A stretch of 64,000 nt of DNA from Mesoflavibacter profundi (GTDB taxonomy: Bacteria; Bacteroidota; Bacteroidia; Flavobacteriales; Flavobacteriaceae). Below are positions 11,273 through 31,691 of the stretch, in pieces; the first letter of the stretch is position 1; each line of letters starts with the position of its first letter. The notes under the pieces are model-generated. The model made no database searches. It saw only the letters and a program-made list of their open reading frames with translations, and had not been told where the DNA came from. The position numbers and the translations under genes are program-made. The DNA lies in assembly GCF_014764305.1 (NCBI RefSeq), contig NZ_CP061703.1, positions 1,005,501 through 1,069,500 on the forward strand, read 5' to 3'.

Positions 11273-14047
11273 ATGAAATTTAAAACCATAATATCAATCC
11301 TATTTGCTTTTACAATTAACATTGTACAAGCACAGTATACGCCTTATTTTGAAAACTATTCTTTATCAAAATACAATGCTGGAAATCAAAATTGGGGAAT
11401 TTCAGTTGCTACTAACGGTAAAGTTTATGTCGCAAATAATAAAGGATTACTGGTATTTAATGGTTTAAATTGGAAATTACACACGTTACCTAATAAAACT
11501 ACAATTAGATCTGTCTTAGCTGTTAAAGATAGAATCTATACAGGTTCTTATGAAGAATTTGGATATTGGAAATTCAATTCTAAAGGCGAACTTTTATACA
11601 CGTCTCTAACTTCAGAAAACACAAAGTTTTCTGCTAGTGAAGAGTTTTGGCAAATTCTTAATCTTGATCAAAAGATAATCTTTAGGTCTTTTCAAAATGT
11701 ATATATTTTAGAAGATGAAACCATTACAAGAATACGTCCTCAATCTACCGTAATAACTTGTAATATTATTAAAGATCAACTTTATATATCTACACTTAAT
11801 AGCGGAGTTTATAAATTATTAAAATCAAAACAGTTAATACCAGTTATTAATGATAATGAGTTAAAAAACACAAAGATAGTATCAGTTTCAGCTTATAAAG
11901 ACAAACTACTAATTACTACTGCTTTAAAAGGTTGTTTTTTTTATGATAATGAAAAACTAACACCAGCTAATTTTAATATTAATGATGATTTAAAAAGATA
12001 TCAGCTTAATAGTTTTTCAGCTTTAAACAATGGTAACTTAGTTTTTGGTACCATAAAAAATGGTGTGTTTATAACCAATAATTCTGGACAATTATTATAT
12101 AACTTAAATAAAGAAAATGGATTGGCTAACAACACTATTTTAAACACAATAGTAAGTCAAGACACTAATATTTGGTTGTGCTTAGATAATGGGTTATCAA
12201 AAATAGATTTAAGTAATAATATTTCTTATTACAATGATGTAACAGGAAAATTAGGTGCTGTATACGATGTACTAACTCATCAAAATACGATTTACATTGG
12301 CAGTAATACCGGATTGTATTATTTGGATAATGACAATAAATTAAACTTTATAGATGGTACGCAAGGACAAGTTTGGGATTTAAAAATAATTGACAATCAA
12401 TTATTTTGTGGTCATAACGATGGTACATTTATTATCGATGGTACATCTGCTTCACTAATTTCAAATTATACTGGTGGATGGACTATAAAAAAAGTCCCAG
12501 AAAAAAATATTTACATACAAGGTACATATGCTGGATTAGTAAAATTTTCTAAAAACAACTCCAACTGGACGTCAAGTCACTTAGGAAAAACTACAGATCC
12601 AATACGGTTTTTAGAGTTTGAAGACAAACAAAACATTTGGGCTGCAAATGCCTATAAAGGGTTAAGTAAAATTAAACTTAATACAAATTTAGACTCTATT
12701 GTTACGGTTAATAATTATATAAACAAAGGATTACAAAGCGATTATAACATTAAAGTTTATAAAATAAAAAACAACATTTGCTTTAAGACTAATAACGGAT
12801 GGAAAAAATACGAACCCTTACAAGATAGTATTGTTTCTTATAAATTTTTAAACTCAAAAATTGGGGAAAACTCAGATTTAATTTCTGCAACCAACCTTAA
12901 CGATCTATTTTTTAAAAATGAAACAGGAATTATAAAACTAGATCAGCAAAACAACATTAGGCAAATATTAACTAGAAACTATTACGACAATCGTGTAATT
13001 GTAGGTTATGAAAATATTTCAAAACTTAATGATAGTACTTACGCATTAAACCTAAACGATGGGTTTTTACTATTTAACGCTAATAAATTATTAAATAACT
13101 ATACACCAAAAGTTCCAACAATAGAGCAAATTAAAGTTAACAACGTAAAAGTTAATTTAGACTCTAGCATGGTACAAATACCTAATAATGGTAAAGTACA
13201 TATTAATATTGCATCGCCGTTATCTAAGAATCACTATTTTGAGTATAGCTTAGATACAGATAATAACAAATGGGAAAAGGTAGATAATGAGACGTTAATA
13301 TTATCAAACCTTAAAAACGGTGATTTTTATGTTGCATTTAGAACAACAAATAAAGCTGGAGAATCCTCTAAACCCAACCTATTAAAATTACATGTTTTAC
13401 CACCTTGGTATAAATCTAGTACTGGATTTTTATTGTATTTGTTAGCTGCGTTAATGCTAACCATGCTATTTTACTTACTACATAAAAGAAAAATAAAAAA
13501 AGAACAACGCATACTACAAATACAACATAAAAAAGAACAACAGCAAATACTAAAAGAAAAAAACATTGAAAATGAACGAAAACTTGTAGAACTTAAAAAT
13601 GAAGCTTTAGAAAACGAAATCAAACTTAAGAGCAAACAATTAGCAAACACTGCTATCGCGTTAGTAAAGAAAAACGAAGCTTTATTAGAAATTAAAAAAG
13701 ATTTACAAGTAAACGAAGGACAGTTTAGCAACAAATTAATCAATAAAAGACTGCAAAAAAAGATAGATCAAACCATAGGCAACAAAGACCAATGGGAAAT
13801 ATTTGAATACAATTTTAATCAAGTTCATGAAAAGTTTTTTAACCAATTAAAAGACAAACATCCTAAACTATCACATAAAGATTTAAAGCTTTCTGCCTAC
13901 ATCAAAATGAATTTGACTACAAAAGAAATTGCGCCACTTATGAACATTTCAACAAGAGGTGTAGAAACTCATAGATACAGATTAAAACAAAGATTAGACC
14001 TATCTAAAGAAGATAGTTTAACAGATTACCTTAATAGTTTTAACTAA
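11273..14047 (+). CDS. SusR-like membrane-spanning regulator (propeller sensor, LuxR-type HTH)
   Basis: This 924-aa protein has a signal peptide (1-21), then a periplasmic two-component-regulator beta-propeller (about 22-630) with repeats such as TNNSGQLLYNLNKENGL. A Y_Y_Y domain follows (about 640-715; HYFEYSLDTDNNKW), then one transmembrane helix (about 718-736). A basic coiled coil (740-830) leads to a C-terminal LuxR-type helix-turn-helix (about 865-910; LTTKEIAPLMNISTRGVETH). It lacks the kinase, receiver and AraC domains of hybrid two-component systems, so signal and DNA binding are joined in one chain, as in SusR of Bacteroides. It lies directly before susC and probably senses oligosaccharides released by the locus. 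TACGTCA repeats downstream are candidate binding sites. Confidence 0.9.
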   Translation: MKFKTIISILFAFTINIVQAQYTPYFENYSLSKYNAGNQNWGISVATNGKVYVANNKGLLVFNGLNWKLHTLPNKTTIRSVLAVKDRIYTGSYEEFGYWKFNSKGELLYTSLTSENTKFSASEEFWQILNLDQKIIFRSFQNVYILEDETITRIRPQSTVITCNIIKDQLYISTLNSGVYKLLKSKQLIPVINDNELKNTKIVSVSAYKDKLLITTALKGCFFYDNEKLTPANFNINDDLKRYQLNSFSALNNGNLVFGTIKNGVFITNNSGQLLYNLNKENGLANNTILNTIVSQDTNIWLCLDNGLSKIDLSNNISYYNDVTGKLGAVYDVLTHQNTIYIGSNTGLYYLDNDNKLNFIDGTQGQVWDLKIIDNQLFCGHNDGTFIIDGTSASLISNYTGGWTIKKVPEKNIYIQGTYAGLVKFSKNNSNWTSSHLGKTTDPIRFLEFEDKQNIWAANAYKGLSKIKLNTNLDSIVTVNNYINKGLQSDYNIKVYKIKNNICFKTNNGWKKYEPLQDSIVSYKFLNSKIGENSDLISATNLNDLFFKNETGIIKLDQQNNIRQILTRNYYDNRVIVGYENISKLNDSTYALNLNDGFLLFNANKLLNNYTPKVPTIEQIKVNNVKVNLDSSMVQIPNNGKVHINIASPLSKNHYFEYSLDTDNNKWEKVDNETLILSNLKNGDFYVAFRTTNKAGESSKPNLLKLHVLPPWYKSSTGFLLYLLAALMLTMLFYLLHKRKIKKEQRILQIQHKKEQQQILKEKNIENERKLVELKNEALENEIKLKSKQLANTAIALVKKNEALLEIKKDLQVNEGQFSNKLINKRLQKKIDQTIGNKDQWEIFEYNFNQVHEKFFNQLKDKHPKLSHKDLKLSAYIKMNLTTKEIAPLMNISTRGVETHRYRLKQRLDLSKEDSLTDYLNSFN

Positions 14048-14067
14048 AAAAATACGTTATTCTGCTA

Positions 14068-14177
14068 TACGTCAATACTACGTCACGATAACGTTGTAGT
14101 TGCATTATTACTATATTTTTAACGGTTTAACAGTACGTCAATACTGGTATTTATTAATAAATGGTTAACATGACGTA
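14068..14177 (+). promoter_or_regulatory. TACGTCA repeat cluster upstream of susC (PUL A)
   Basis: TACGTCA occurs at 14068-14074, 14079-14085 and 14134-14140, and inverted (TGACGTA) at 14171-14177. A related TACGTTA is at 14053-14059. The first two direct copies are 11 bases apart, one helical turn. The longer word TACGTCAATACT is repeated exactly at 14068 and 14134, 66 bases apart. The cluster fills most of the 209-base gap between the regulator and susC and is a good candidate operator for the SusR-like protein. Confidence 0.6.
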
Positions 14178-14256
14178 ATCAAAATGTAATACGATTTATA
14201 AATTTTAGTTAAATAGCTGTTAATTTTACTTCACTAACATTCTAAAATAAAAATAC

Positions 14257-17200
14257 ATGAGAACAAAAATTAATTTTTTATTCTTCTTGTTATTGAGTGT
14301 ATGTATGTATGCTCAAGACAAAACCATAACAGGTACCGTAACAAGTTCTGACGATGGTTTACCCTTACCTGGTGTAAATGTTGTCGTTCCTAATACAAAT
14401 AACGGAACAAGTACAGACTTTGACGGTAACTATAGCATCACAGTAAACCAAGGTGATGTTTTAGAGTTTAGCTACTTAGGCTTTAAAACTCAACAGATAA
14501 CAATAAGTAATCAAACTACTGTAAATGTAGATTTAGAAATTAATGCTTCAGACTTAGAAGAAGTTGTAATTATTGGATACGGATCTCAAAAAAAATCTGA
14601 TCTAACAGGTGCTATTACTACAGTAAAATCTGAAGAAATAGAAAAAACACCAAATAGTAATGTAATGCAATCATTACAAGGTAAAGTTGCAGGATTACAA
14701 ATCACCAGTAATGGATCTCCAGGAGATTCGCCTAATGTTAGAGTTCGTGGTGTAAACTCAATTTTTGCTGGCGGAAATCCTTTATATGTTGTAGATGGTG
14801 TTTGGTATGATAACATCGATTTTTTAGACAATAGCCAAATAGAATCTGTTTCTGTATTAAAAGATATGTCTTCTACTGCAATTTTTGGTCAAAGAGGTAG
14901 TAACGGTGTAATTATTATAGAGACTAAAGGTGGAAAACAAAACAGAAAACCTGTTATTACTTACAATGGTTATACAGGTATACAACATGCACAAAATGTT
15001 GTAAAAATGGCAAATGCAGAACAGTTTGTAACTATGGCTTACGAGTCAGGATCTGAAGCAGATATACAATACGTACTAAATGCTATGCAACGCTATGGTA
15101 GAAGTCGAGTTAACCCAAATATTCCAGATGTAAACACAGATTGGTATAAAGAAGTATTAAGAGATGCTCCAATATCAAGTCATAGTATTGGTGTTTCTGG
15201 TGGAGGAGAACACACTAATTACGGTTTAAATACAAGTTATTTTTCTCAAGAAGGTATACTGGATATGAAAAATGAATACGAACGTTTTAATATTCAAGGT
15301 AACATAGATGTAGAAGTATCAGATCGTTTTAAAATTGGAGTAAACAGTGCGTTTAGTAATGCTACAAAATATAATCCTGAAAACGGAGCTTGGTTCCAAG
15401 CGTATTTTGCAGTACCTATTTTACCTAAATTTGATTACCAAAATGAAGAGGCGTCTCCTATTCCATTTTCAGATGCAACTCAATTAGGATATAGAGGATC
15501 TCAAAATCCATTTCCTGTTATGACTTTCAACAACAATCAATTAAAGATTAGAAAGTTACTAACAAGTATTTATGGAGAATATTACATAATTCCTGATAAG
15601 TTATCGTTTAAAACAACTTATTATAACGATTACTCTACTATTTTAGAAAGAAATGTAAGATTACCGTATTTCATTTCAGAAAATTCTCAAAGAGAAACCT
15701 CTTCTATTAGAAGAGCTAATTTAACCACATCAAATCAAATGTGGGATAACCTTTTAACTTACTCGGACACATTTAACAAACATAGTTTAAAAGTTATTGC
15801 TGGTACATCTTATCGTGACGAGCAATATAACTCGTTTGCAGCTACCGGAAACGATATTCAAGCGGTTAGTTTAGAATCTTCATGGTATTTAAATTTTGCA
15901 GATCCTACAACTTTTAGTAATCAGGTATCAGAAATTGGAGATCGCTTCTATTCTATGTCTTATTTAGGAAGAATCGAATATAGCTTTGATGATAAATACT
16001 TATTTAATGCTACTTTAAGACATGAAGGTGATGGTAGATTCCCTAAAAAAATATGGGAAACAACTCCTCAATTTGGTTTAGGTTGGGTAATATCTAATGA
16101 GCAGTTTTTAGAAAACAATTCAATTATAGATTTTTTAAAGGTTAGAGGTACATGGGGACAATTAGCTAATGGTGCTTTAGGAGGAAGTTCTGGAGAACGT
16201 ACAATTAATCAAATAGTTACAGCTATTGGCGATGTTGCAACAAACGGTATAGTTAGCACAAGTACATTTAATGACTTACAAAGAGAAATTATTGAAGAAA
16301 CCAACTTTGGTATTAGCGCTAGATTATTTAATAATAGTTTAAGTATAGAGGCAGATTATTACATACGTGACACTAAAAATTTAGTAGTTTCTAGAGAAGT
16401 TCCTATTACTGGAAACACCATTTTAGATAATGCAGGAGAAATGAGAAATAAAGGTTTTGAATTTGCTGCAAATTGGAATCATACTATTAACGATAACTGG
16501 AATTTTTCTATTGGAGGAAATATTGCAACCTTACATAACGAAGTTACTAGCGTAGATACAGAAAGAGGTTACATAGATACAGGAAGTGCAGAGTTTAGAC
16601 AACGTGTAATGGTTGGAGAACCTGTAAATGCATTCTTTGGACTTGAAGTAGCTGGTGTCTATCAAAATGAAACCGAAGTTGCTAACGATCCAATTGCTGT
16701 AGATAATAACTTAGAACCTGGTGATTTTAAATACGTAGATCAAAACAACGATGGAATAATAGATGATAATGATAGAACAGTAATTGGTTCTTACTTACCT
16801 ACGTTTAATTATGGTGCTAATTTAAAAGTAAGCTATAAAAACTTTGATCTTTCTGTAGATGTTCAAGGTCAATCTGGTAATCAAATCCTAAATCGTAAAC
16901 GTGGTGAAGTCATTTTTACTAACGACACTAATATAGATGCAGATTTTGCAATTAATAGATGGCATGGTGAAGGTACTACTAATTCTTATCCGTCTTCTGC
17001 TGGTAGACGTAAAGGATGGAATCAAAGAATGAGTACATTTTTTGTTGAAGATGGCGGTTATTTCAGAATTCAAAATATTCAATTAGCATATAATATTCCT
17101 AGTGGAACATTTGGCAAAAACATGCCAGAAACAAGAGTGTATTTTACAGCAGATAGACCATTTACATTCTTTAATTACAATGGATTTAGCCCAGAAGTTT

Positions 17201-17271
17201 CTAATGGTGTAGATAGACAAACTTATCCTATTCCTGCTGTATATTCAATAGGAGTTAATGTAAAAATTTAA
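14257..17271 (+). CDS. susC: SusC-like TonB-dependent receptor (PUL A)
   Basis: This 1004-aa protein is an outer-membrane TonB-dependent transporter of the SusC/RagA family. It has a signal peptide (1-20) and a carboxypeptidase-regulatory-like domain (about 22-100) with DGLPLPGVNV and TSTDFDGNYSI. A short TonB-box region with EEVVIIGYG follows, then a plug domain (about 110-225; SLQGKVAGLQI, RGSNGVIIIETKGG) and a long 22-strand barrel ending in YSIGVNVKI. It should import oligosaccharides captured by the SusD partner 12 bases downstream. The locus enzymes suggest beta-1,2-glucan oligosaccharides as cargo, an inference from context. Confidence 0.95.
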   Translation: MRTKINFLFFLLLSVCMYAQDKTITGTVTSSDDGLPLPGVNVVVPNTNNGTSTDFDGNYSITVNQGDVLEFSYLGFKTQQITISNQTTVNVDLEINASDLEEVVIIGYGSQKKSDLTGAITTVKSEEIEKTPNSNVMQSLQGKVAGLQITSNGSPGDSPNVRVRGVNSIFAGGNPLYVVDGVWYDNIDFLDNSQIESVSVLKDMSSTAIFGQRGSNGVIIIETKGGKQNRKPVITYNGYTGIQHAQNVVKMANAEQFVTMAYESGSEADIQYVLNAMQRYGRSRVNPNIPDVNTDWYKEVLRDAPISSHSIGVSGGGEHTNYGLNTSYFSQEGILDMKNEYERFNIQGNIDVEVSDRFKIGVNSAFSNATKYNPENGAWFQAYFAVPILPKFDYQNEEASPIPFSDATQLGYRGSQNPFPVMTFNNNQLKIRKLLTSIYGEYYIIPDKLSFKTTYYNDYSTILERNVRLPYFISENSQRETSSIRRANLTTSNQMWDNLLTYSDTFNKHSLKVIAGTSYRDEQYNSFAATGNDIQAVSLESSWYLNFADPTTFSNQVSEIGDRFYSMSYLGRIEYSFDDKYLFNATLRHEGDGRFPKKIWETTPQFGLGWVISNEQFLENNSIIDFLKVRGTWGQLANGALGGSSGERTINQIVTAIGDVATNGIVSTSTFNDLQREIIEETNFGISARLFNNSLSIEADYYIRDTKNLVVSREVPITGNTILDNAGEMRNKGFEFAANWNHTINDNWNFSIGGNIATLHNEVTSVDTERGYIDTGSAEFRQRVMVGEPVNAFFGLEVAGVYQNETEVANDPIAVDNNLEPGDFKYVDQNNDGIIDDNDRTVIGSYLPTFNYGANLKVSYKNFDLSVDVQGQSGNQILNRKRGEVIFTNDTNIDADFAINRWHGEGTTNSYPSSAGRRKGWNQRMSTFFVEDGGYFRIQNIQLAYNIPSGTFGKNMPETRVYFTADRPFTFFNYNGFSPEVSNGVDRQTYPIPAVYSIGVNVKI

Positions 17272-17283
17272 AAAAAGCGCAAC

Positions 17284-18813
17284 ATGAAAAAAACACATTT
17301 AAAATTACAACAGCTAGCGCTACTGTTAGCAATATCAATTACACTATTTAACTGTAATGATAAATTAGAAGAAAACGACGGACAAGTAGGTACTGCAGAT
17401 CTAGATTACACAGTTTCTGAAGACATGATTTTACCTCTTGTTGGTGCATACTCAACTACATATACTCGCGGTTGGGAAGATCCATTATTAGTTGGCGTAA
17501 GAGGTGACGATGTAAATGCAGGCGGACTTGGTGACCAACCACTTTTTGCAGAAACAGACCTTTTTAATTATGATAATGGGTTTTGGATGTACAATCAAGT
17601 TTGGAAAAACTTTTATGGCGACATCGTAGATGTCTTAAATGCAGGAGAAGTAATTGCGCAATACAAACAATTTGCAACTGGTCAATATGTAGATTTAGCA
17701 GATCAATACATTGCAGAAACTAAAGTACTAAGCGGTTTCCAACACTTACAAATGTCTAAACTTTGGGGAGATATTTTTATTATAACAAACTCAGATCCTA
17801 GAGCAGACTTAGAAAATGGAGTTGCTACAAAAATGCAAATCATGCAATACGTTTCAGATTTAATGGACGAAGCTATTCCTTACCTTCCAGATATGAGACC
17901 AAACGAGCGTCAAGATATTCCTGGCGGAGTAACAAAATACACTGCTTTAGCTGTAAAAGCATTAGCTAATCTTGAAATGGAAAATTATCAAGGTGTAGCA
18001 GAAGCGACAGAACAAATTATAAGTTCAGATAAATTTAGCCTTCATCCAGACTACTATCAATTATTTAAAAAACCAGGAAAGCTTAGTGATGAGAACTTAT
18101 TTGAACTTCAATTCTCAGATTATAATACAGAATCTGGAGACGTAAACAATCACCTATTTGCGCCTTTTGGTCCTACAAGTTGGACACCTGTTGTATCTAC
18201 AGCATCTGGCGGTTGGGGATTTTATGAACCAAGCTTAAAATTTATCAAATTTATGTTAGATAGAAATGATGAAACTAGGCTAGTTACAAGCGTATGTTTT
18301 ACACCAAGAGGTATTGACGAGATAATGGAAGACCCAAATTATGCAACCTTACCTAGTTACATCTCAAACACTACACTATCTGGAGATATTTTTAACGATT
18401 ATCCTAGAGCAATGTTTGCTAGTGGAAAACATTATTTACCATCAATACAATTAACACCAGAAAGAAATAGCTACGGATCAAGTAAAAACTTAATCGTGAT
18501 TAGATATGCAGAAATTCTTTTAATGTATGCAGAAGCTTTAACTCAAGGTGCAAGTGGTACAATCATGACCGCAGATCAAGCAGTAAATACCGTAAGAAGC
18601 AGAGTTGATATGGCTCCATTAACAGGTGTAACTCTAGATGATGTAATGGACGAAAAATTTGCAGAATTAGCAATGGAATGGGGCGTACGTTATTTTGACA
18701 TGATACGATTAGATAGATATGACGAGCTTAGTTATGAAGGCAGAACTTTTACTGCAGAAGACGAGTTACTACCATATCCTCAAGCACAAGTAGACTTATT
18801 ACCTCTTGAATAA
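17284..18813 (+). CDS. susD: SusD/RagB-like surface glycan-binding lipoprotein (PUL A)
   Basis: This 509-aa lipoprotein (lipobox LFNC, Cys24) has the SusD architecture: an N-terminal helical TPR-like part (SDLMDEAIPYLPDM), then the C-terminal region with SSKNLIVIRYAEILLMYAEA and MEWGVRYFDMIRLDR. It caps the SusC barrel at the cell surface and passes oligosaccharides to it. It lies 12 bases after susC and 12 bases before the LamG lipoprotein gene, so the three form one tight unit. Confidence 0.95.
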   Translation: MKKTHLKLQQLALLLAISITLFNCNDKLEENDGQVGTADLDYTVSEDMILPLVGAYSTTYTRGWEDPLLVGVRGDDVNAGGLGDQPLFAETDLFNYDNGFWMYNQVWKNFYGDIVDVLNAGEVIAQYKQFATGQYVDLADQYIAETKVLSGFQHLQMSKLWGDIFIITNSDPRADLENGVATKMQIMQYVSDLMDEAIPYLPDMRPNERQDIPGGVTKYTALAVKALANLEMENYQGVAEATEQIISSDKFSLHPDYYQLFKKPGKLSDENLFELQFSDYNTESGDVNNHLFAPFGPTSWTPVVSTASGGWGFYEPSLKFIKFMLDRNDETRLVTSVCFTPRGIDEIMEDPNYATLPSYISNTTLSGDIFNDYPRAMFASGKHYLPSIQLTPERNSYGSSKNLIVIRYAEILLMYAEALTQGASGTIMTADQAVNTVRSRVDMAPLTGVTLDDVMDEKFAELAMEWGVRYFDMIRLDRYDELSYEGRTFTAEDELLPYPQAQVDLLPLE

Positions 18814-18825: not shown

Positions 18826-20538
18826 ATGAAAAATTTATATAAAATAATAAGTGTTTTTGCAATTATACTTTCAATAACATCTTGTGAAGATGGTATAGAT
18901 CCAATAACACAAATTAATCCAGGACCAGATGCTGGTGCACCAGTTGTAGAAATAGCCTATCCAACAGATGGTACAACTATACAAGATTTAAATTTAGAAA
19001 GTACTATAGACATAGAATTTGAAGTACAAGATGATATAGAAATATCAAGCGTTATAGTTAATGTAGACGGAAATCAAACCGCTAGTTTTAATTCTTTTGT
19101 AGACTATAGAATATTTCAAACAACTGTAACAAAAGACGGTATTACAACAGGTGATCATACACTAGAAATCATAGCAACAGATATTTCTGGTAATCAAACC
19201 ATTCAAATTGTTACTTTTAGCAAAGAGCCACCTTACACGCCTTTATTTAACGGCGAGTTTTTATACATGCCTTTTGATGGTGTATATACAGATTTAATTT
19301 CTATCACAAATCCAGAACAAATAGGTAATCCTCAATTTGCTGGTGTAAGTTATGATGGTTCTAATGCATTTAAAGCAACTACAGATTCTTACTTATCTTT
19401 CGAGTTAGATCAATCTAACCTTGGTGACGAGTTTACAGGTGCATTTTGGTATAAAGTAGATGCGTCTCCAGACCGATCTGGTATTCTAACAATTGGTGAT
19501 GATGCTGCAGACCGTTTTCAAGGGTTTAGGTTATTTAGAGAAGGAAACTCTTCCAGTCAAAGAATAAAACTAAACGTTGGAACTGGTACTGGAGAAAGTT
19601 GGAATGACGGTGATGTAATAGATGTAACAGCAGAAGAATGGGTACATGTTGCGTTTACTATTTCTCCAACAGAAACAGTAATCTATTTTAACGGTTTACC
19701 TGTTAATACAGCAACACCTTCTGGTGCAATAGACTGGACTAACTGTACAGATTTAGTAATTGGAGCTGGCGGACCTACTTTTGACTATTGGGGACACAAT
19801 TCTGATAATAGTGTAATGGACGAATTAAGGTTGTTTAGTGTTGCAATGTCTCAATCAGAAATTCAAAATTTAATAGACGTAACAAGTCCTTACGAACCTC
19901 TTTATCAAGAAAAATTTTATATGCCTTTTGATGGTAGTAATTTCGATTTTGTTGGAAGTACAGATGCAACTGTAATAGGTAATACACTTTTCGCTGGAGA
20001 AAGCTACGAAGGTTCTAACGCCTTTTTATCGGCAACAGACTCTTATTTAACCTATCCTATATCTAACATTTTTGGCTCTACTACAGCCTTTAGTGCAACA
20101 TTCTGGTACAAAGTAAGTGCTACACCAGATAGAGCTGGTATACTTACAGTTGGTGATGATGCTGCAGACCGTTTTCAAGGATTTAGATTATTTAGAGAAG
20201 GAAATGCTACCGAACAAAGAATAAAAGCAAATATAGGAACTGGTACAGGTGAAAGTTGGAACGATGGTGATGTAATTACTGTTGCTGCTGGAGAATGGGT
20301 ACATATTGCCTTAACCGTTTCTGAAACAGAAAGCAAAATATATTTTAATGGAACTGAAGTTAATACTAACGCCTTATCTAATCCGGTAGATTGGACTAAT
20401 TGTACCGAAATAGTTATTGGTGCTGGCGGACCTACTTTTGATTATTGGGGACACGCATCAGATAGTAGTCCAATGGACGAACTAAGATTATTTGACAGAG
20501 CGTTAACTTCAGAAGAAATTAATAACATGATAGACTAG
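18826..20538 (+). CDS. Surface lipoprotein with Ig-like and two LamG domains (SusE/F position)
   Basis: This 570-aa lipoprotein (lipobox ITSC, Cys20) has an N-terminal Ig-like domain (about 40-130; VVEIAYPTDGTTI). Two tandem LamG/concanavalin-A-like domains follow, at about 145-345 and 362-570. The two are close copies: DDAADRFQGFRLFREGN and GTGTGESWNDGDVI occur in both, and each starts with YMPFDG and ends with DELRLF. No catalytic glutamate motif of GH16 is visible, so binding rather than hydrolysis is the likely role. It occupies the place of SusE/SusF-type surface glycan-binding proteins. Confidence 0.88.
   Translation: MKNLYKIISVFAIILSITSCEDGIDPITQINPGPDAGAPVVEIAYPTDGTTIQDLNLESTIDIEFEVQDDIEISSVIVNVDGNQTASFNSFVDYRIFQTTVTKDGITTGDHTLEIIATDISGNQTIQIVTFSKEPPYTPLFNGEFLYMPFDGVYTDLISITNPEQIGNPQFAGVSYDGSNAFKATTDSYLSFELDQSNLGDEFTGAFWYKVDASPDRSGILTIGDDAADRFQGFRLFREGNSSSQRIKLNVGTGTGESWNDGDVIDVTAEEWVHVAFTISPTETVIYFNGLPVNTATPSGAIDWTNCTDLVIGAGGPTFDYWGHNSDNSVMDELRLFSVAMSQSEIQNLIDVTSPYEPLYQEKFYMPFDGSNFDFVGSTDATVIGNTLFAGESYEGSNAFLSATDSYLTYPISNIFGSTTAFSATFWYKVSATPDRAGILTVGDDAADRFQGFRLFREGNATEQRIKANIGTGTGESWNDGDVITVAAGEWVHIALTVSETESKIYFNGTEVNTNALSNPVDWTNCTEIVIGAGGPTFDYWGHASDSSPMDELRLFDRALTSEEINNMID
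19261..20535 (+). repeat. Tandem duplication encoding two LamG domains
   Basis: About 19261-19870 and 19912-20535 encode homologous LamG units. Identical protein blocks (DDAADRFQGFRLFREGN, ESWNDGDVI, GAGGPTFDYWGH) recur in the same order. DNA is also close, for example the ctgcagaccgttttcaagg stretch seen in both. This indicates a fairly recent internal duplication. Confidence 0.85.
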
Positions 20539-23374: not shown

Positions 23375-24166
23375 ATGAAACTTTTAAAAAACAAATTCAC
23401 TGTATGTTTTTTCCTTTTATCGGTAATTACAGTTGCTCAAAATGATGCATTTGAAGAAAAATTTCATATTAAAAACAGTGATACACTTAAGTATCGTATA
23501 ATGTATCCAGAACATTTTTCAAAAGACAAAAAATATCCTGTCGTGTTATTTCTTCATGGAGCTGGAGAACGTGGTAACGACAACCAAAAACAACTTACGC
23601 ATGGTAGTAAATTGTTTACAGATAAAATAAATCGTGGTGCTTTTCCTGCTATTGTTATTTTCCCTCAATGTCCAACAGATAGTTATTGGTCAAATGCAGA
23701 AGTAGATAGAAGTAGTTATCCAATTAGTTTAACGTTTCCAAAGGAAAAAGAAGCGACAATAGCTTTACAATTAGTAATTGATTTAATGCAAAACATTACT
23801 AAAAACAACTATGTAGATAACTCTAAAATATACGTTGGAGGATTATCTATGGGCGGAATGGGCACATTCGAAATTATTTCAAGACAACCCAATCTATTTG
23901 CAGCTGCTTTTGCTATTTGTGGTGGCGGTAATACAGAAAATGTTACAAACTTTGCAACAAAAGTCCCTATGTGGATCTTTCATGGTGCAAAAGATAATGT
24001 TGTAAAACCTCAATTATCTGTACAAATGGTAAATGCCATAATTAATGCTGGCGGAACACCAAATTTTACATTATATGCAGAAGACAATCATAACTCTTGG
24101 GATAGTGCTTTTGCAGAACCTAAACTTCTAACTTGGTTATTTTCAAACACAAAAACTAATGAATAA
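23375..24166 (+). CDS. Secreted alpha/beta-hydrolase esterase (PHB-depolymerase/PET-like)
   Basis: This 263-aa protein has a cleavable signal peptide (about 1-21, ending VITVAQ) and an alpha/beta-hydrolase fold. The oxyanion region is LFLHGAGERGNDN, the nucleophile elbow GLSMGG (Ser158), with probable Asp207 (GAKDNVV) and His239 (EDNHNSW). Such proteins are common in carbohydrate loci as carbohydrate or feruloyl-type esterases. Here it would remove ester groups from the glycan, though the leaving group is unknown. It overlaps the GH3 gene by 8 bases, which supports one operon. Confidence 0.82.
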   Translation: MKLLKNKFTVCFFLLSVITVAQNDAFEEKFHIKNSDTLKYRIMYPEHFSKDKKYPVVLFLHGAGERGNDNQKQLTHGSKLFTDKINRGAFPAIVIFPQCPTDSYWSNAEVDRSSYPISLTFPKEKEATIALQLVIDLMQNITKNNYVDNSKIYVGGLSMGGMGTFEIISRQPNLFAAAFAICGGGNTENVTNFATKVPMWIFHGAKDNVVKPQLSVQMVNAIINAGGTPNFTLYAEDNHNSWDSAFAEPKLLTWLFSNTKTNE

Positions 24167-26471
24167 AAAAACAATTAATCCATTATATACTATAGTACTT
24201 TTTATTACAATTTTTAGTTGTAATACTAGCACTAACACATCATCAACAAGTTCAAATAATCCCTTTGAAGCTAAAGTAGATTCAATTATAAAATTAATGA
24301 CTTTAGAAGAAAAATTAGGACAGTTAAACTTGCCTTCTTCAGGAGATATAACTACTGGTCAAGCCCAAAGCTCTAACATTGCTAAAAAAATAGAAGAAGG
24401 CAAAGTTGGTGGACTTTTTAACATTAAAACCGTAGAAAAAATTAGAGCTGTTCAACAAATAGCTGTAGAAAAAAGCAGACTAGGAATACCTTTAATTTTT
24501 GGTATGGATGTTATTCATGGTTATAAAACTACGTTTCCAATTCCGTTAGGATTATCTACATCTTGGGATATGCCTATGATTGAAAAAACTGCTAGAGTCG
24601 CAGCTCAAGAAGCTAGTGCAGATGGTATAAACTGGACATTCTCGCCAATGGTAGATGTATCTAGAGATCCGCGTTGGGGAAGAATTTCGGAAGGAAATGG
24701 TGAAGACGCTTATTTAGGCAGTCAAATTGCAAAAGCTATGGTAAAAGGTTACCAACAAGATAATCTTAGTGATAATAATACTTTAATGTCTTGTGTAAAA
24801 CATTTTGCATTATATGGCGCTTCAGAAGCTGGTAGAGATTACAATACCGTAGACATGAGTAAAATTAGAATGTATAATGAATATCTTCCGCCTTACAAAG
24901 CAGCAATAGACCAAGGTGTTGGATCTGTAATGGCATCGTTTAACGAAATTGATGGTATTCCTGCAACTGGTAACAAATGGTTGCTTACAGACTTATTAAG
25001 AACCGATTGGAAATTTAATGGTTTTGTAGTATCAGACTATACAGGTGTAAGCGAAATGATAGACCATGGTATGGGCGATTTACAGCAAGTTTCGGCTTTA
25101 GCTTTAAGTGCTGGAACAGATATGGATATGGTTTCAGAAGGATTTTTAAACACATTAAAAAAATCTGTTGAAGAACATAAAATCTCTATCGCAGAAATTG
25201 ATTTAGCTGTTAAACGCATTTTAACTGCAAAATACCAACTTGGTTTATTTGATGATCCTTACAAGTATTGTAATGAAGAACGAGCTAAAACAGAAATATT
25301 TACAAAAGAAAATAAAGATTTTGCTAGAAAAGTATCTGCAGAATCTATGGTTTTACTTAAAAACGAAAACGAAACTTTACCTTTAAAAAAATCTGGAACA
25401 ATTGCCCTAATAGGTCCATTAGCCAATACTGCTGTAAATATGGCTGGTACTTGGAGTGTTGCAACAGATCAAGAAAAATCAATAACAGTTTTAGATGGAT
25501 TAAAATCGGTAATTGGCGATAAAGCAAACATAAACTATGCTAAAGGTAGTAATGTGGATTATGATTTGACGTTAGAACAAAGAGGAACCATGTTTGGTAA
25601 AGACATACCAAGAGATAACAAAACAGATAAACAGCTTTTAGACGAAGCGTTAGCAATTGCTAATAAATCGGATGTTATTGTTGCTACTTTAGGAGAAGCA
25701 GCAGAATACAGTGGAGAAAGCAGTAGTAGAACAAATCTAGACATTCCACAATCACAAAAAGACTTATTAAACGCTTTACTAAAAACAGGAAAACCAGTAG
25801 TTTTAGTATTGTTTACAGGAAGACCGTTAGTTTTAGTTGAAGAAGACAAAAATGTTCCTGCAATATTAAACGTATGGTTTCCTGGTAGTGAAGCAGGATT
25901 AGCAATTGCAGATGTACTATTTGGAGACATTAATCCATCTGCAAAATTAACAACTACTTTCCCTAGACATGTTGGCCAAATTCCTCTTTTTTATAACCAT
26001 AAAAATACAGGAAGACCTTTAGGTAATACAGATGGAAAATTTGAGAAATTTAGAAGTAATTATTTAGATGTGCGTAATGAGCCTTTATACCCATTTGGCT
26101 ACGGTTTAAGTTACACAACGTTTAAATATAGCCCAATAAAACTTAGTAAAAACAACTTAAATTCAACAGACACAATTACTGTATCTGTAGACGTTAGTAA
26201 TACAGGAAATTATGATGGTAAAGAAGTTGTACAATTATACATTAGAGACCTAATTGGTACAGTAACAAGGCCTGTAAAAGAATTAAAAGGGTTTCAAAAA
26301 ATATTTATTAAAAAGGGGGAAACAGTAACTGTAGATTTTAAAATTTCAATTGAAGATTTAAAATTCTATAATTACGACTTAGACTATATTGCAGAAGATG
26401 GAGATTTTGAGATATTTGTAGGAACAGATTCTAATACAACTAGAAAAGCTGTAATTACATTAACTCAATAA
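24159..26471 (+). CDS. GH3 beta-glucosidase lipoprotein (BglX-like)
   Basis: This 770-aa glycoside hydrolase family 3 enzyme has a lipoprotein signal (lipobox IFSC, Cys21). The N-terminal TIM barrel has GIPLIFGMDVIHGYKTTFP, SPMVDVSRDPRWGRISEG and SCVKHFALYG; the nucleophile is Asp293 in VVSDYTG. The alpha/beta sandwich (about 400-620; GEAAEYSGESSSRTNLDIP) and a C-terminal FnIII-like domain follow. The nucleophile is followed by Tyr rather than the more common Trp, still seen in active relatives. It should release glucose from beta-linked gluco-oligosaccharides, probably in the periplasm, completing the work of the GH144 enzymes. Confidence 0.93.
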   Translation: MNKKTINPLYTIVLFITIFSCNTSTNTSSTSSNNPFEAKVDSIIKLMTLEEKLGQLNLPSSGDITTGQAQSSNIAKKIEEGKVGGLFNIKTVEKIRAVQQIAVEKSRLGIPLIFGMDVIHGYKTTFPIPLGLSTSWDMPMIEKTARVAAQEASADGINWTFSPMVDVSRDPRWGRISEGNGEDAYLGSQIAKAMVKGYQQDNLSDNNTLMSCVKHFALYGASEAGRDYNTVDMSKIRMYNEYLPPYKAAIDQGVGSVMASFNEIDGIPATGNKWLLTDLLRTDWKFNGFVVSDYTGVSEMIDHGMGDLQQVSALALSAGTDMDMVSEGFLNTLKKSVEEHKISIAEIDLAVKRILTAKYQLGLFDDPYKYCNEERAKTEIFTKENKDFARKVSAESMVLLKNENETLPLKKSGTIALIGPLANTAVNMAGTWSVATDQEKSITVLDGLKSVIGDKANINYAKGSNVDYDLTLEQRGTMFGKDIPRDNKTDKQLLDEALAIANKSDVIVATLGEAAEYSGESSSRTNLDIPQSQKDLLNALLKTGKPVVLVLFTGRPLVLVEEDKNVPAILNVWFPGSEAGLAIADVLFGDINPSAKLTTTFPRHVGQIPLFYNHKNTGRPLGNTDGKFEKFRSNYLDVRNEPLYPFGYGLSYTTFKYSPIKLSKNNLNSTDTITVSVDVSNTGNYDGKEVVQLYIRDLIGTVTRPVKELKGFQKIFIKKGETVTVDFKISIEDLKFYNYDLDYIAEDGDFEIFVGTDSNTTRKAVITLTQ

Positions 26472-26478
26472 TTTTAAA

Positions 26479-27363
26479 ATGAAACACTTAACATATCTAA
26501 TATTTTTTATTTCGTTGTTTTCTTTTTCTCAAAAAAAAGAAACTTATATCTATGCCATAAAAGGTAAAGACACATTAAAATTAGATATTTATAAACCAAG
26601 ACGTGTAAAGAAAAACCAAAAACTTCCTGTTTTTGTTTGGATGCATGGTGGCGGATTTTCTGGAGGAACAAGAGATAATAAATATGAAAAAAAGCTAGCC
26701 AAATATGTTGCAAAAAAACAAGGCTATGTTAGTGTTTCCATTTCATATAGGTTATTAAGAAAGGGAACTAAAACAGGATTTGGCTGCAATTGTTCTAAAC
26801 AAGAAAAACTAGAAACATTTAAACAAGCTGCAATAGATTATTTAGATGCAGTAAACTATTTAATAACGCATTCAGACAAATTTAATATAGACACTTCCAA
26901 AATTATTGCTGGAGGAAGTAGTGCTGGCGCAGAAGGTGTTTTAAATGCAGTTTACATGAAACCATATTTTATAGAAGATTTAGAACCATATAATCAAATA
27001 AAATTTGCTGGAGTAATGTCTTGTGCTGGCGCTATGGTAGATGCAAATTACATTTCAGATAAAAACGCAATTCCTACAGTTATGCTTCATGGAACAAAGG
27101 ATCCATTAGTACCTTTTGACAATGCACCGCATCACTTTTGTAAAAAAGATCAGCCTGGTTATATATTTTTAGATGGCTCTAATGTTATAGCAAATAAATT
27201 ACATCAATTAAATTCCTCGTATTATTTTAAAGTTATTAATGATGCAGGTCATGAAATAGCTGGTATACCTTTTAAAGATTTAAAAAAAATATTCGAATTT
27301 TTTAATCAAACCATAATCGAGCAAGACATTGTTCAAACCAAAATTTTTAAAACAAAAAAATAA
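26479..27363 (+). CDS. Secreted alpha/beta-hydrolase, carboxylesterase/BD-FAE type
   Basis: This 294-aa protein has a short signal peptide (about 1-17, ending LFSFSQ). The oxyanion motif is HGGGFSGGTRDN and the nucleophile elbow GGSSAGAEG (Ser148); the probable triad is completed by Asp208 (GTKDPLVP) and His258 (DAGHEIAG). The HGGG motif points to the hormone-sensitive-lipase/BD-FAE group, distinct from the other esterase of this locus. It probably removes acyl groups from the glycan. The stop overlaps the next ATG by one base. Confidence 0.83.
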   Translation: MKHLTYLIFFISLFSFSQKKETYIYAIKGKDTLKLDIYKPRRVKKNQKLPVFVWMHGGGFSGGTRDNKYEKKLAKYVAKKQGYVSVSISYRLLRKGTKTGFGCNCSKQEKLETFKQAAIDYLDAVNYLITHSDKFNIDTSKIIAGGSSAGAEGVLNAVYMKPYFIEDLEPYNQIKFAGVMSCAGAMVDANYISDKNAIPTVMLHGTKDPLVPFDNAPHHFCKKDQPGYIFLDGSNVIANKLHQLNSSYYFKVINDAGHEIAGIPFKDLKKIFEFFNQTIIEQDIVQTKIFKTKK

Positions 27364-29198
27364 TGAAATTCTTATATTTTATTTTAACCACATTACTAAT
27401 ATTACAATCATGTGTTAATAATAAAATTCCTGAAACAAAATCTTCTGTAAAAAACGTAATTGATACCACACAAACCTACATCAATCCGCTAGACATCGAT
27501 TATACCTATATGGTTTATAATTCTGCCAGAAATCAATCGTATCGTTCTGGTGCAGATCCAGCTGTAATTGAGTTTAAAGGCGAATATTATATGTTCGTCA
27601 CACGATCTTTTGGGTATTGGCATTCCACAGATTTAGTTAACTGGAAATTCATCAAACCACAACAATGGTTTTTTGAAGGTAGCAACGCACCAACAGCGTT
27701 CAACTACAAAGATTCTTTAGTTTATTTTGCTGGCGATCCGGCAGGTTACGGAAGTATTTTATATACCGACGATCCTAAAAAAGGGTTATGGACACCAACT
27801 GCTTCCATTTCAAATAACATTCAAGATTCCGAATTATTTATTGATGACGATGGTAAGTCGTATTTGTATTGGGGAAGTTCTAACGTGCATCCTATTCGCG
27901 TAAAAATGCTGAATAAAGACGACCGTTTTTTAGAAACTGGCGATAGAGAAGAGTTGATAAATTTAGATGAAGAAAAGCACGGTTGGGAACGTTTTGGCGA
28001 AAACAACTTTCATCCAACTTTAAAAGAAGGTTATATGGAAGGCGCGTCAATGACCAAACACAATGGAAAGTACTATTTACAATATGCAGCGCCAGGCACA
28101 CAATTTAATGTCTATGCAGATGGTGTGTATGTTGGCGATTCGCCACTTGGACCTTTCACCTATATGAAAAATAATCCAATGAGTTTTAAACCTGGCGGAT
28201 TTACCAATGGTGCAGGACACGGTATTACAGTAAAACAAACCAACGGTCAATACTGGCATTTTGCGACAATGGCATTGGCATCTAACGCACAATGGGAACG
28301 TCGTTTATGTATGTTTCCTACCTATTTTGACGAAGATGGTTTAATGTACAGCAACACATCGTACGGCGATTATCCTCGTTATGGTGCTAATCATCCATCA
28401 AAAGCTGGACAACATAATGGCTGGATGTTATTATCGTATAAAGGCAATGTAACTGTATCGTCTTCACTTCAACAAATCATGAAATTTACGTCTAATGATG
28501 ATGAAGTTGAAGTCAAAGAAATCCCAACAGAAAAAAATTCTGAAGGACAAATAACTTCAAAAGTTTTAACCGACGAAAACCCTAAAACCTTTTGGGTTGC
28601 CGAAGCTAACGACGATAAACAATGGATCACAATCGAATTGTTAAATGAAGGAACCGTACACGCCATTCAGTTAAATTATCACGATCACGAATCAGGAATT
28701 TACACACGTGTTGAAGGTTTAAAACATCAATTTACTATTGAAACTTCAGTAGATGGTAAAAACTGGAAAACGGTTGTAGATAGAAGTAAATCTGATATTG
28801 ATGCACCAAACGCTTACCTAGTTTTAGATGAACCTGTAAAAGCAAAATTCGTTAGATATAACAATATAAAAGTACCAGGAAATAACTTCGCCATGTCCGA
28901 AGTTAGAGTTTTTGGTTTAGGCTTAGGTGAAGCACCAAAAAAGGTCGCTAACATTAAAATTAGTCGTGAAAAAGACCGTAGAGACATTTCATTTTCTTGG
29001 GATAAAGTTGAAGGCGCACAAGGTTATAACATACGTTGGGGAATTGCACCAGACAAATTGTACCAATCTTGGCAAGTTTACGATACTAATTCACACTTTA
29101 TGCGCTGCTTAGATAGAGATACGCCGTATTATTTTACCATTGAAGCTTTTAATCAAAATGGAATTTCGGAACTTAGTGAAATACAATATATCGAGTAA
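27363..29198 (+). CDS. GH43-like protein with F5/8 type C and FnIII domains, lipoprotein
   Basis: This 611-aa protein has a lipoprotein signal (lipobox LQSC, Cys17), then a five-bladed GH43-type domain (about 45-365). Likely catalytic residues are Asp65 (GADPAVIE), Asp155 (IQDSELFIDDDG) and Glu226 (YMEGASM). An F5/8 type C (discoidin) carbohydrate-binding domain follows (about 385-520), then FnIII (about 525-611). All three expected acids are present, so it should be active. GH43 enzymes usually act on arabinose, xylose or galactose linkages, so it may remove a side group from the glucan; the sugar cannot be named. It is coupled to the genes on both sides. Confidence 0.83.
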   Translation: MKFLYFILTTLLILQSCVNNKIPETKSSVKNVIDTTQTYINPLDIDYTYMVYNSARNQSYRSGADPAVIEFKGEYYMFVTRSFGYWHSTDLVNWKFIKPQQWFFEGSNAPTAFNYKDSLVYFAGDPAGYGSILYTDDPKKGLWTPTASISNNIQDSELFIDDDGKSYLYWGSSNVHPIRVKMLNKDDRFLETGDREELINLDEEKHGWERFGENNFHPTLKEGYMEGASMTKHNGKYYLQYAAPGTQFNVYADGVYVGDSPLGPFTYMKNNPMSFKPGGFTNGAGHGITVKQTNGQYWHFATMALASNAQWERRLCMFPTYFDEDGLMYSNTSYGDYPRYGANHPSKAGQHNGWMLLSYKGNVTVSSSLQQIMKFTSNDDEVEVKEIPTEKNSEGQITSKVLTDENPKTFWVAEANDDKQWITIELLNEGTVHAIQLNYHDHESGIYTRVEGLKHQFTIETSVDGKNWKTVVDRSKSDIDAPNAYLVLDEPVKAKFVRYNNIKVPGNNFAMSEVRVFGLGLGEAPKKVANIKISREKDRRDISFSWDKVEGAQGYNIRWGIAPDKLYQSWQVYDTNSHFMRCLDRDTPYYFTIEAFNQNGISELSEIQYIE

Positions 29199-29199
29199 A

Positions 29200-30036
29200 A
29201 TGAAATATCTTTTTCTTATCCTATTTTCAATTTCAACATTAAGTCTTGCTCAAGATTACACTGCAATGACTTATAATATTAAATTAGATTTTCCAAAAGA
29301 AGGCGAAAACAGTTGGCAAAACCGTAAGCCTTTTTTTATTAATCAAATCAAGTTTTACGAGCCTGATGTTTTAGGTGTACAAGAAGCTATGCCAAACCAG
29401 ATGAAAGATATGGATAGCTTATTAACAGATTACAGTTATATTGGTGTTGGTCGTGATGATGGTAAAAATAAAGGTGAATTTTCAGCAATTTTTTATAAAA
29501 ATAAAGAGTTAAAAGTACTTCAATCGTCAACTTTTTGGTTGTCCCAAACTCCAGACAAAGTAAGTATAGGTTGGGATGCAGTTTGTAATCGTGTTTGTAC
29601 TTATGCTTTATTTCAACATAAAAAAACAAAAGAAACATTTTGGGTATTTAACACGCATTTTGATCATGTAGGTGAAGTTGCTAGAGAAAAAAGTGCGGCG
29701 TTAATTCTAAAAAAAATAAACACATTAAACACAAAAAACTATCCGGTTTTATTAATGGGCGATTTTAATTTAGAGCCAAAAAGCAGTCCTATTTTATCGA
29801 TTAAAGAAAAATTAAATGATAGTAATTCTGTTGCCAAATTAGTTTTTGGTCCAACAGGAACATACAATGGTTTTAATTTTAATATCGCAGTAAAAACAAG
29901 AATTGATTATGTATTTGTATCAAAATCATCTATTTTAGTCAAAAAATATGCAGTTTTAAGTGATAATTGGGAAACAAAATATCCATCAGATCACTTACCT
30001 GTTTATATCAATTTTAAACTAACTAAAACTAAATAA
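29200..30036 (+). CDS. Secreted endonuclease/exonuclease/phosphatase-family phosphodiesterase
   Basis: This 278-aa protein has a signal peptide (MKYLFLILFSISTLSLAQ) and one EEP domain. Visible motifs are AMTYNIKLDFP (Asn), VLGVQEAMPNQ (catalytic Glu), NTHFDHVG, LLMGDFNLEP and the terminal YPSDHLPVY. The ATG at 29200 is chosen because it starts the signal peptide one base after the GH43 stop; an ATG at 29140 lies inside the GH43 gene. Secreted EEP proteins occur in some carbohydrate loci without an assigned role. Here it could cleave phosphodiester substituents such as phosphoglycerol from the glycan, which is inference. The transporter gene follows after 2 bases. Confidence 0.82.
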   Translation: MKYLFLILFSISTLSLAQDYTAMTYNIKLDFPKEGENSWQNRKPFFINQIKFYEPDVLGVQEAMPNQMKDMDSLLTDYSYIGVGRDDGKNKGEFSAIFYKNKELKVLQSSTFWLSQTPDKVSIGWDAVCNRVCTYALFQHKKTKETFWVFNTHFDHVGEVAREKSAALILKKINTLNTKNYPVLLMGDFNLEPKSSPILSIKEKLNDSNSVAKLVFGPTGTYNGFNFNIAVKTRIDYVFVSKSSILVKKYAVLSDNWETKYPSDHLPVYINFKLTKTK

Positions 30037-30038
30037 AC

Positions 30039-31691
30039 ATGATTGGAATAATCTCCTTTGTAGGATTTACAGCGTTGGTTGCTGTAATTTCTTACTTTGC
30101 TACAATTAAAACCAACGAAAATACATCCGATGGTTATTTTTTAGGTGGACGAAGTCTTACTGCTGGCGTTATTGCAGGATCATTACTTTTAACTAACCTA
30201 TCTACAGAGCAAATAGTAGGTTTAAATGGTAGTGCTTATAAAGACGGACTATCTGTAATGGCTTGGGAAACATTAGCTGCAATTGCAATGGTAGTAACTG
30301 CTATATTTTTATTACCAAGATATTTAAAAGGTGGACTAACTACTGTACCACAATTTTTGGCAAAACGATTTGATGTCACTACAAAAACAATAACTTCTGG
30401 TTTATTTTTAACTGGTTATGTAGTAGTACTATTACCGGTAATTTTATATTCTGGATCTGTAGCAATTAGTGGTATGTTTGATATTCCAACACTATTAGGT
30501 GTTTCAGATCAATCTGCAATTGTAATTTGTATTTGGGGAATTGGATTAATTGGATCTGTGTATGCGGTTTTTGGAGGATTAAAAGCTGTAGCTGTTTCAG
30601 ATTCTATAAATGCAATTGGTTTATTAATTGGTGGTATTTTAATTCCTGTTTTTGGTTTAATAGCTTTAGGCGAAGGTGACTTTTTCACTGGATTAGATGC
30701 TCTTGTAAATACTCATCCAGAACGTTTTGACTCTACTGGCGAAAGCTGGCAAGAAGTACCGTTTGTAACAATTTTTACAGGAATGATGCTTGTTCAGTTA
30801 TTTTATTGGGGAACAAACCAACAAATTATACAACGTGCTTTAGGTGCTAAAAACTTAGCTGAAGGACAAAAAGGTTTATTATTAGCTTCGTTTTTAAAAA
30901 TATTAGGACCAATTATTCTTGTTATACCAGGTATGATTGCCTATCAATATTTTGATGGAAATCTAGCTTCTAGTGATTTAGCTTATCCAGAATTAGTAAG
31001 AGCTGTATTACCAAAACCACTAATTGGTTTTTTTGCAGCAGTTTTATTTGGGGCAATCTTAAGCTCGTTTAATAGTGTTTTAAATAGCTCGGTTACTTTA
31101 TTTGGAATTGATATTTACAAACAACACATAAATCCACAAGCTCCGGAAAAAACCATAGTTAAATACGGAAAAATATTTGGTGTTTGTCTAGCTATAGCTG
31201 CAATGTTTATCGCACCATTAATTGCTAATGCTGGAAGTTTATTTAATTATTTACAGCAAATAAATGGTATTTATAGTATTCCAATTTTTACTATTATAGT
31301 TGTTGGTTACTTAACAAAACGTGTTCCTGCAATTGCTGCAAAAATTGGGATTATTTCTGGTTCGGTCTTATATATTATAAGTCAGTTTTGGATTGGACCA
31401 AGTCGTGTAGAAGCTGCATTAGAAAAAGCTAAAGCTACAGGCATTACAGATCCACAAGCCTTAAGAGTTGTTGAAGCAGATGCTTATCCTCATTTTTTAC
31501 ATATTATGGCAATTTTATTTATCGCCAACGTGATAATAATGTTAATTATAGGAAAAATAAAACCAAGAGAAACTCCTTTTGTTTTAGAATATACTAAACA
31601 AGTGTCTATAGAGCCTTATAAATATGTAAAACAATTTGGGCTAGTAATATGCGCAATTGTAATTGCTATTTACATTTTATTTGCTAAATAA
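30039..31691 (+). CDS. Sodium/solute symporter (SSS family, SGLT-like)
   Basis: This 550-aa inner-membrane protein of the SSS/SLC5 family has about 13-14 predicted transmembrane helices. Landmarks are GYFLGGRSL near the N-terminus, LTNLSTEQIVGLNG, VFGGLKAVAVSD and FYWGTNQQIIQRALGAKN, all typical of sodium/glucose cotransporters. It should bring the released monosaccharide from the periplasm into the cytoplasm and is the last gene of PUL A. A strong terminator follows. Confidence 0.9.
   Translation: MIGIISFVGFTALVAVISYFATIKTNENTSDGYFLGGRSLTAGVIAGSLLLTNLSTEQIVGLNGSAYKDGLSVMAWETLAAIAMVVTAIFLLPRYLKGGLTTVPQFLAKRFDVTTKTITSGLFLTGYVVVLLPVILYSGSVAISGMFDIPTLLGVSDQSAIVICIWGIGLIGSVYAVFGGLKAVAVSDSINAIGLLIGGILIPVFGLIALGEGDFFTGLDALVNTHPERFDSTGESWQEVPFVTIFTGMMLVQLFYWGTNQQIIQRALGAKNLAEGQKGLLLASFLKILGPIILVIPGMIAYQYFDGNLASSDLAYPELVRAVLPKPLIGFFAAVLFGAILSSFNSVLNSSVTLFGIDIYKQHINPQAPEKTIVKYGKIFGVCLAIAAMFIAPLIANAGSLFNYLQQINGIYSIPIFTIIVVGYLTKRVPAIAAKIGIISGSVLYIISQFWIGPSRVEAALEKAKATGITDPQALRVVEADAYPHFLHIMAILFIANVIIMLIIGKIKPRETPFVLEYTKQVSIEPYKYVKQFGLVICAIVIAIYILFAK

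Follow-up and report, generated by a model that had tools for sequence, protein, structure and literature searches.

Positions 11273-31691 of the window, a 64,000-nucleotide stretch of Mesoflavibacter profundi contig NZ_CP061703.1, hold twelve co-directional genes on the + strand, in the operon-like layout of a polysaccharide utilisation locus (PUL). The locus is of a kind already known, the beta-1,2-glucan PUL, and represents a phosphoesterase variant of that kind: besides a susC/susD pair, a regulator and co-directional genes for carbohydrate-active enzymes (CAZymes), among them two of family GH144, it carries a gene for a secreted phosphoesterase of the EEP superfamily. I estimate at about 0.5 the probability that it serves the use of an acylated, phospho-decorated beta-1,2-glucan, most plausibly a periplasmic or cyclic glucan from dead or leaking Proteobacteria. 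The genes that a preliminary description of this DNA had placed here, namely two GH144, a GH3, a GH43 with a binding module, an EEP, a symporter, SusC/SusD and a SusR-like regulator, are all present on that strand in the order described, each matched to its family by Pfam or NCBIfam scans; the two esterases it had called different do have different best families.

The likely backbone is beta-1,2-glucan, a sugar chain produced mostly by bacteria. The overlapping genes at 20646-22013 (GH144a) and 22013-23362 (GH144b) encode likely endo-beta-1,2-glucanases that match PF10091 with 262 and 270 bits and align with CpSGL (5gzk/5gzh) over more than 90% of the length, with 590 and 513 bits, respectively. 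Residues D135, D139, E142 and E211 of CpSGL (numbers matched by counting along 5gzh), whose mutation lowers activity according to a passage of PMC12102758, are retained in both proteins in pairwise alignments. Since both GH144 proteins keep these essential residues, beta-1,2-glucan is their likely target. The genome (3.09 Mb) has two PF10091 genes, both at this locus. The GH3 (24159-26471) is a beta-glucosidase of BglX type that passes the equivalog cut-off of NF011678 with 931 bits; it scores 1080 bits against 5xxl, which I take to be BT_3567, while 3u48, 3u4a, 5tf0 and 9urf score higher. A GH3 of Bacteroides thetaiotaomicron shares the linkage preference of Lin1840, as stated in a passage of PMC12369401. 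The GH144 residues, the full-length similarity to CpSGL and the kinship of the GH3 all speak for the beta-1,2-glucan backbone assumed in the preliminary description. As a separate observation, GH144 homologues were also found on plasmids (92 records, e.g. NZ_OY725948.1), 25 of them from Sinorhizobium and 13 from Rhizobium, carriers that presumably make cyclic beta-1,2-glucan.

That this backbone is decorated with phospho groups is suggested by the EEP gene (29200-30036, PF03372). Its start is most likely the ATG at 29200, 1 bp past the GH43 stop, rather than the TTG at 29140. In addition to the PF03372 match, the protein has the Asn, Glu, His, Asp-Asn, Asp and Asp-His motif residues of EEP phosphoesterases, which are invariant in 16 sequences and to which I presume the usual functional roles. 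In fold comparison it matches the mannosyl-6-phosphatase Bt3783 (4c1r) with 39% identity; 3g6s and 3mpr, with no stated function, are slightly better matches.

The recurrence of phosphoesterases in related loci was assessed in three sets of regions, in which a GH144 gene was counted at 100 bits or more. An order-level sample of 40 fetched regions has GH144 in 36, leaving aside L004, which continues L003, and L038, L040 and L042, fetched for their GH43. A class/phylum-level sample has it in 40 of 40, counting L070 and L079-L081, where the PF10091 match is weak and no SusC is visible; some genomes contribute to both samples. Finally, 60 of 77 named loci around GH43 relatives contain GH144. The control consisted of 40 SusC/D regions, hand-picked among the matches listed; they come from 14 of 15 genomes, all of which belong to the family of the window and carry GH144 as well. 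GH3 accompanies GH144 in 35 of the 36 order-level and 23 of the 40 class/phylum-level regions. Genus and family labels of sampled genomes (g2, f5) are putative, and identical rows, such as those of L198, the same contig as L007, were removed before the GH43 and EEP trees were built.

A phosphoesterase of any type accompanies GH144 in 17 of 36 loci at the order level and in 23 of 60 named ones, but is seen in only one of 40 controls; these counts include a tentative PHP type (L006, one of the 17, and five of the 23), a label presumed from the motif in proteins that match no Pfam family even at E 0.5. Fisher tests against the control give 3.7e-6 for the order-level sample, 0.62 for the class/phylum-level one and 8.8e-4 for both pooled, values which are not true probabilities, as rows are related and 10 of the 17 are GDPD loci of genus g2. 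With iterated profiles the control count rises to 2 of 40 by the addition of L087 (an EEP and a weak PF01663-type protein), the order-level value becoming 3e-5, and the 40 control regions contain no GDPD, calcineurin-like or PHP-type match.

The enzymes in question are of several unrelated families. Genus g2, which belongs to the same family as the window, has ten loci with a GDPD (PF03009) flanked by GH3 and GH43; one of these ten was checked against Pfam and the remaining nine cluster with it. Across 32 GH144-bearing genomes scanned whole, 63 rows are GDPD, and the g2 GH144 locus accounts for ten. Elsewhere the GH144 locus contains a calcineurin-like phosphoesterase (L014), an EEP and a PF01663 enzyme (L048), a GDPD (L054) or both EEP and GDPD (L166). 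Mapped on a GH43 tree with 125 proteins, their distribution takes 9 changes for EEP, 6 for the calcineurin-like type (6 rows) and 3 for GDPD, of which well-supported branches force at least 7, 5 and 2, and these changes may include losses. As to the EEP itself, 42 matches above 200 bits occur in 50 genomes of the family; among the 9 at a GH144 locus are that of the window and the three that resemble it most. On the EEP tree the window's protein falls in a set of 17 that all come from GH144/GH43 loci, with low support (81/54). A decorated glycan that is stripped by a phosphoesterase is thus supported by comparison with relatives, a recurrence that is mostly limited to the window's family and order. 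No earlier account of phosphoesterases in GH144 loci was found in the open-licence literature; in the relevant passages of PMC6499787, phosphodiesterases are named only for susC/D loci lacking CAZymes.

Two further proteins were seen in such loci. A DUF4886 protein is encoded in three GH144/GH43 loci, at 11925-13691 of L140 (between GH43 and EEP), 14093-16090 of L139 and 11688-13685 of L056. Of the 40 GH144 loci at the class/phylum level, 11 have a GDSL lipase (PF13472 for L043, 6201-6866), perhaps an alternative route of deacylation; none of 40 controls has one.

Is the EEP peculiar to beta-1,2-glucan? Of the 33 matches above 200 bits that lie away from GH144, 11 loci were read, picked partly for a nearby GDPD, so that their composition is not a rate. 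Eight of the 11 are PUL-like, and seven of these eight show GH3, GH16, GH5 or GH30 genes (GH16, GH5 and GH30 were confirmed for six proteins, the others being read from sequence). GDPD adjoins EEP in L206, L207, L208 and L218, which hints at glycerophosphodiester chemistry, and shares an operon-like run with it in L209. In three SusC-bearing loci the EEP stands beside a GDPD-GH16 fusion (L206 8329-9903, L208 8867-10444, L218 7956-9512), which puts a glycerophosphodiesterase and a beta-glucanase domain in one polypeptide; 7ww4/7wwc, named beta-1,3(4)-glucanase, match GDPD across residues 5-233 of 480. On the EEP tree the PUL members away from GH144 group together (92/85), separately from the 17 sequences that include the window's. 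Since the EEP/GDPD pair occurs in other glucan-type SusC/D loci, with GH16, GH30 or GH5, I rejected the view that the EEP specifically signals beta-1,2-glucan. The pairing speaks for a glycan with a phosphodiester, and at the same time makes the EEP a weaker pointer to that particular linkage. Cyclic beta-1,3/1,6-glucans of Bradyrhizobium carry phosphocholine and would fit the EEP/GDPD loci; a fungal wall glucan with GPI remnants might fit them as well.

The GH43 gene (27363-29198; PF04616/PF00754, with F5/8C and fn3 domains) encodes an active-looking enzyme: besides the PF04616 match it has the catalytic triad D65, D155 and E226, which do not vary across alignments of 18 and of 34 sequences and presumably act as base, pKa modulator and acid. 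The predicted model has a pLDDT of 84.6. Specificity could not be read from structure, however: no close characterised relative was found among PDB entries (best sequence match 47 bits), the best fold match, BT_3662, has 18-19% identity, and every listed fold match has at most 23%. What distinguishes this GH43 clade is its company. Strong carriers have GH144 in the same genome in 66 of 66 cases among 296 genomes and in 76 of 79 among 392 (the samples overlap), while 12 of 78 and 68 of 144 GH144 genomes do without the GH43. It stands away from GH144 genes in three genomes of f5, another family of the order (L038, L040, L042). The nearest named GH43 loci belong to a Winogradskyella metagenome-assembled genome (MAG; 92% identity) and to Mesoflavibacter zeaxanthinifaciens (91%), which probably places the source of the window near them among the marine Flavobacteriaceae.

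These sister loci differ from the window operon in gene content. The four best-matching named loci (L123-L126), from Winogradskyella MAGs, Mesoflavibacter and Kordia algicida, have the order GH3-GH2-esterase-sulfatase-GH43-EEP-MFS (esterase A is missing from L124), whereas the window operon has neither sulfatase nor GH2, and has an SSF gene where the sisters have MFS. Sulfatases of the order-level loci keep the C-G-P-S-R motif (the cut-off fragment in L004 is uninformative) and those of class-level L068 and L077 read C-S-P-S-R; the best PDB match of the L009 enzyme is 9s03, a 'putative sulfatase', followed by the GlcNAc-6-sulfatase 5g2v. Relocation of the gene within the window genome was considered and rejected, since neither of its two PF00884 matches, a 534-residue membrane protein and an 865-residue protein that by reading of its N-terminus would lack a signal peptide, resembles the sister sulfatase. 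By PF00884 the window genome thus has no sister-type sulfatase, yet the EEP is kept.

Several observations weigh against a phospho-decorated periplasmic glucan as the substrate. By its name, the closest EEP that has been studied is a mannose-6-phosphate phosphatase and no diesterase. A phosphoesterase occurs in just 3 of 40 class/phylum-level GH144 loci, and the control annotation was seeded from GH144 loci, which biases the comparison toward them. On the EEP tree the move into GH144 loci takes 4 changes, just one of them required by well-supported branches, with which a single entry is compatible. Glucan-type loci that have the EEP/GDPD pair are not confined to a single linkage. Moreover, glucose is the sole sugar of osmoregulated periplasmic glucans (OPGs) in the account given by a passage of PMC3818809; such a glucose-only glycan offers the GH43 no evident substrate, and the enzyme is left unexplained by an OPG unless it acts on glucosyl units. 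Finally, GH2 is present in 12 and a sulfatase in 13 of the 17 close named loci, and L127 has a GH97. The idea, advanced in the preliminary description, that a phosphodiesterase strips the decorations holds up in part: the comparison of syntenic loci supports it at the level of the order, where unrelated phosphoesterases including GDPD recur, and fails to do so at that of the class and phylum.

The main rival to an OPG is the marine glycan proposed by Lapebie et al. 2019, a sulfated or hetero-decorated beta-1,2-glucan, be it an algal or a bacterial exopolysaccharide, of which the present strain, deprived of sulfatase and GH2, would consume a less decorated form while the EEP would deal with a minor phosphate. 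I regard this as possible, though doubtful. The sulfatase and GH2 genes lodged between GH3 and GH43 in L123-L126, their frequency in the close named loci and the intact motif of the order-level sulfatases are what one would expect of it; passages of PMC6499787 and PMC8072126 describe, respectively, marine GH144 PULs with an added sulfatase and a Maribacter GH144 cluster with sulfatases; and the GH43, like the GH97 of L127, suggests other sugars or alpha links. It sits less well with the window itself, whose operon has neither gene and whose genome, by PF00884, offers only proteins unlike the sister sulfatase, and the glycan is put forward in the relevant passage of PMC6499787 as a proposal and not as an isolated substance. 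A second possibility, that the PUL handles plain beta-1,2-glucan and the EEP is a passenger, such as a secreted nuclease or phosphate scavenger that does not touch the glycan, would account for the 37 class/phylum-level GH144 loci without any of the phosphoesterase types sought, and for the same-family EEPs found in regions without SusC (L213, L217, L219). I consider it unlikely: the gene lies only 1 bp from GH43, unrelated phosphoesterases settle in the same kind of locus, GDPD is fused to GH16 elsewhere, and the nearest studied relative acts, by its name, on a sugar phosphate. Still less probable is a shift of the two GH144 enzymes toward a different beta-1,2-linked backbone, a heteroglycan with galactose or arabinose. 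A Bacteroides xylanisolvens GH144 PUL does contain a GH35 beta-1,2-galactosidase (in a passage of PMC11739564) and carriers of the GH43 clade almost always have GH144, but the essential residues and full-length CpSGL similarity of both window enzymes are kept.

For the phospho-decorated beta-1,2-glucan, the pathway that I infer, in which each substrate, each cellular location and the sequence of events is a prediction, would run as follows. The SusD and LamG proteins would hold the glycan at the surface, where the two GH144 enzymes would cut inside the chain, and SusC would import the resulting sophoro-oligosaccharides. Esterases A and B would take off acyl groups, the EEP a phospho substituent such as glycerol phosphate or ethanolamine phosphate, and the GH43 some side unit; the GH3 would then release glucose for uptake by the SSF symporter, and the SusR-like regulator would sense an oligosaccharide. 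The OPG of Escherichia coli is described in a passage of PMC3818809 as a beta-1,2-glucan bearing phosphoglycerol, phosphoethanolamine and succinyl groups. The source is nevertheless the weakest link of the explanation. The OPG suggested as substrate in the preliminary description is no more than plausible, with a probability of roughly a third to a half; EEP/GDPD elsewhere, the role of the GH43 and the sulfatases of the sister loci count against it, and no report of an OPG-degrading PUL was found in the open-licence literature.

The remaining genes of the operon are consistent with a Sus-type system. The SusR-like regulator (11273-14047), homologues of which adjoin many GH144 loci, has a long N-terminal sensor region and a C-terminal LuxR/GerE helix-turn-helix (PF00196, residues 874-916) with a match of 23.6 bits, barely above the cut-off. 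It is followed by the SusC TonB-dependent transporter (14257-17271; TIGR04056, 782 bits, 8e-235), the SusD-like surface glycan-binding protein (17284-18813; PF07980, 1.6e-21) and a member that the preliminary description had omitted, a candidate surface glycan-binding protein (18826-20538) with an Ig-like domain (PF17957) and two tandem LamG_3 stretches (PF13385). Esterase A (23375-24166) is a secreted alpha/beta hydrolase with PF02230 as best family and 3doh, an 'esterase', as best PDB match; esterase B (26479-27363), also secreted, is of the BD-FAE type (PF20434) and has only weak PDB relatives. The operon ends with the SSF sodium:solute symporter (30039-31691; PF00474), whose solute is perhaps glucose. 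From SusC to SSF the spacing ranges from an 8-base overlap to 107 bp, with three neighbours overlapping. By my own reading of the N-termini, which is not the output of a predictor, those of GH144a, GH144b, GH3 and GH43 look like lipoprotein signals and those of the two esterases and the EEP like secretion signals. A terminator-like stem-loop of 19 pairs (31692-31732) lies 3' of the SSF gene; the scan puts it on the - strand, and as its arms end in A/T runs in my reading it could act in both directions. Such sites number 11 in the region against 7.2 expected.

Upstream of the regulator and outside the operon, a second EEP gene (10254-11219) belongs to a different family, PF19580; it was rejected as a member of the system, as no other open reading frame in L001-L199 has PF19580 as best match. 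Farther along, at 47035-61759, the window holds a second SusC/D locus with GH32, a sugar MFS transporter, a PfkB kinase, a LacI regulator and an FG-GAP/ASPIC protein, by inference a fructan-type PUL.

A broader, tentative proposal is that there exists in the Bacteroidota a class of loci for the use of bacterial periplasmic glucans as necromass food, with GH144 for beta-1,2 chains, GH16, GH30 and GDPD for beta-1,3/1,6 chains, a shared and removable phosphodiesterase kit (EEP, GDPD, calcineurin-like) to strip phosphoglycerol, phosphoethanolamine or phosphocholine, and a GH43 with a new activity linked to beta-1,2-glucan. If so, marine bacteria would possess dedicated machinery for eating the envelope glycans of other bacteria, carbon would be recycled together with phosphorus, and a GH144 locus would tell which substrate it serves. 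The strict tie of the GH43 clade to GH144 genomes marks an enzyme activity open to direct assay, and the GDPD-GH16 fusions provide a second testable pair.

How, then, does the locus compare with known systems? With CpSGL and the abundant group of GH144 PULs described in a passage of PMC6499787 (Lapebie et al. 2019), whose marine members add a sulfatase for which a sulfated marine glycan was proposed as target, it shares GH144, SusC/D, GH3 and the essential residues. It differs from them in having two GH144 genes, two esterases, a GH43, an EEP and an SSF, and in lacking the sulfatase of the marine form. Its GH3 is a close homologue of 5xxl, though four other entries score higher. BDI_3064 (5z06), presumably an exo-type GH144, has a GH144 domain that matches the window proteins, but is 712 residues long with an N-terminal extension, whereas these are single-domain proteins like CpSGL; an exo-type GH144 is mentioned in a passage of PMC12369401. 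Bt3783, lastly, shares its fold and motif residues with the window EEP, but was named for mannose-6-phosphate, while the EEP gene of the window sits beside GH144.

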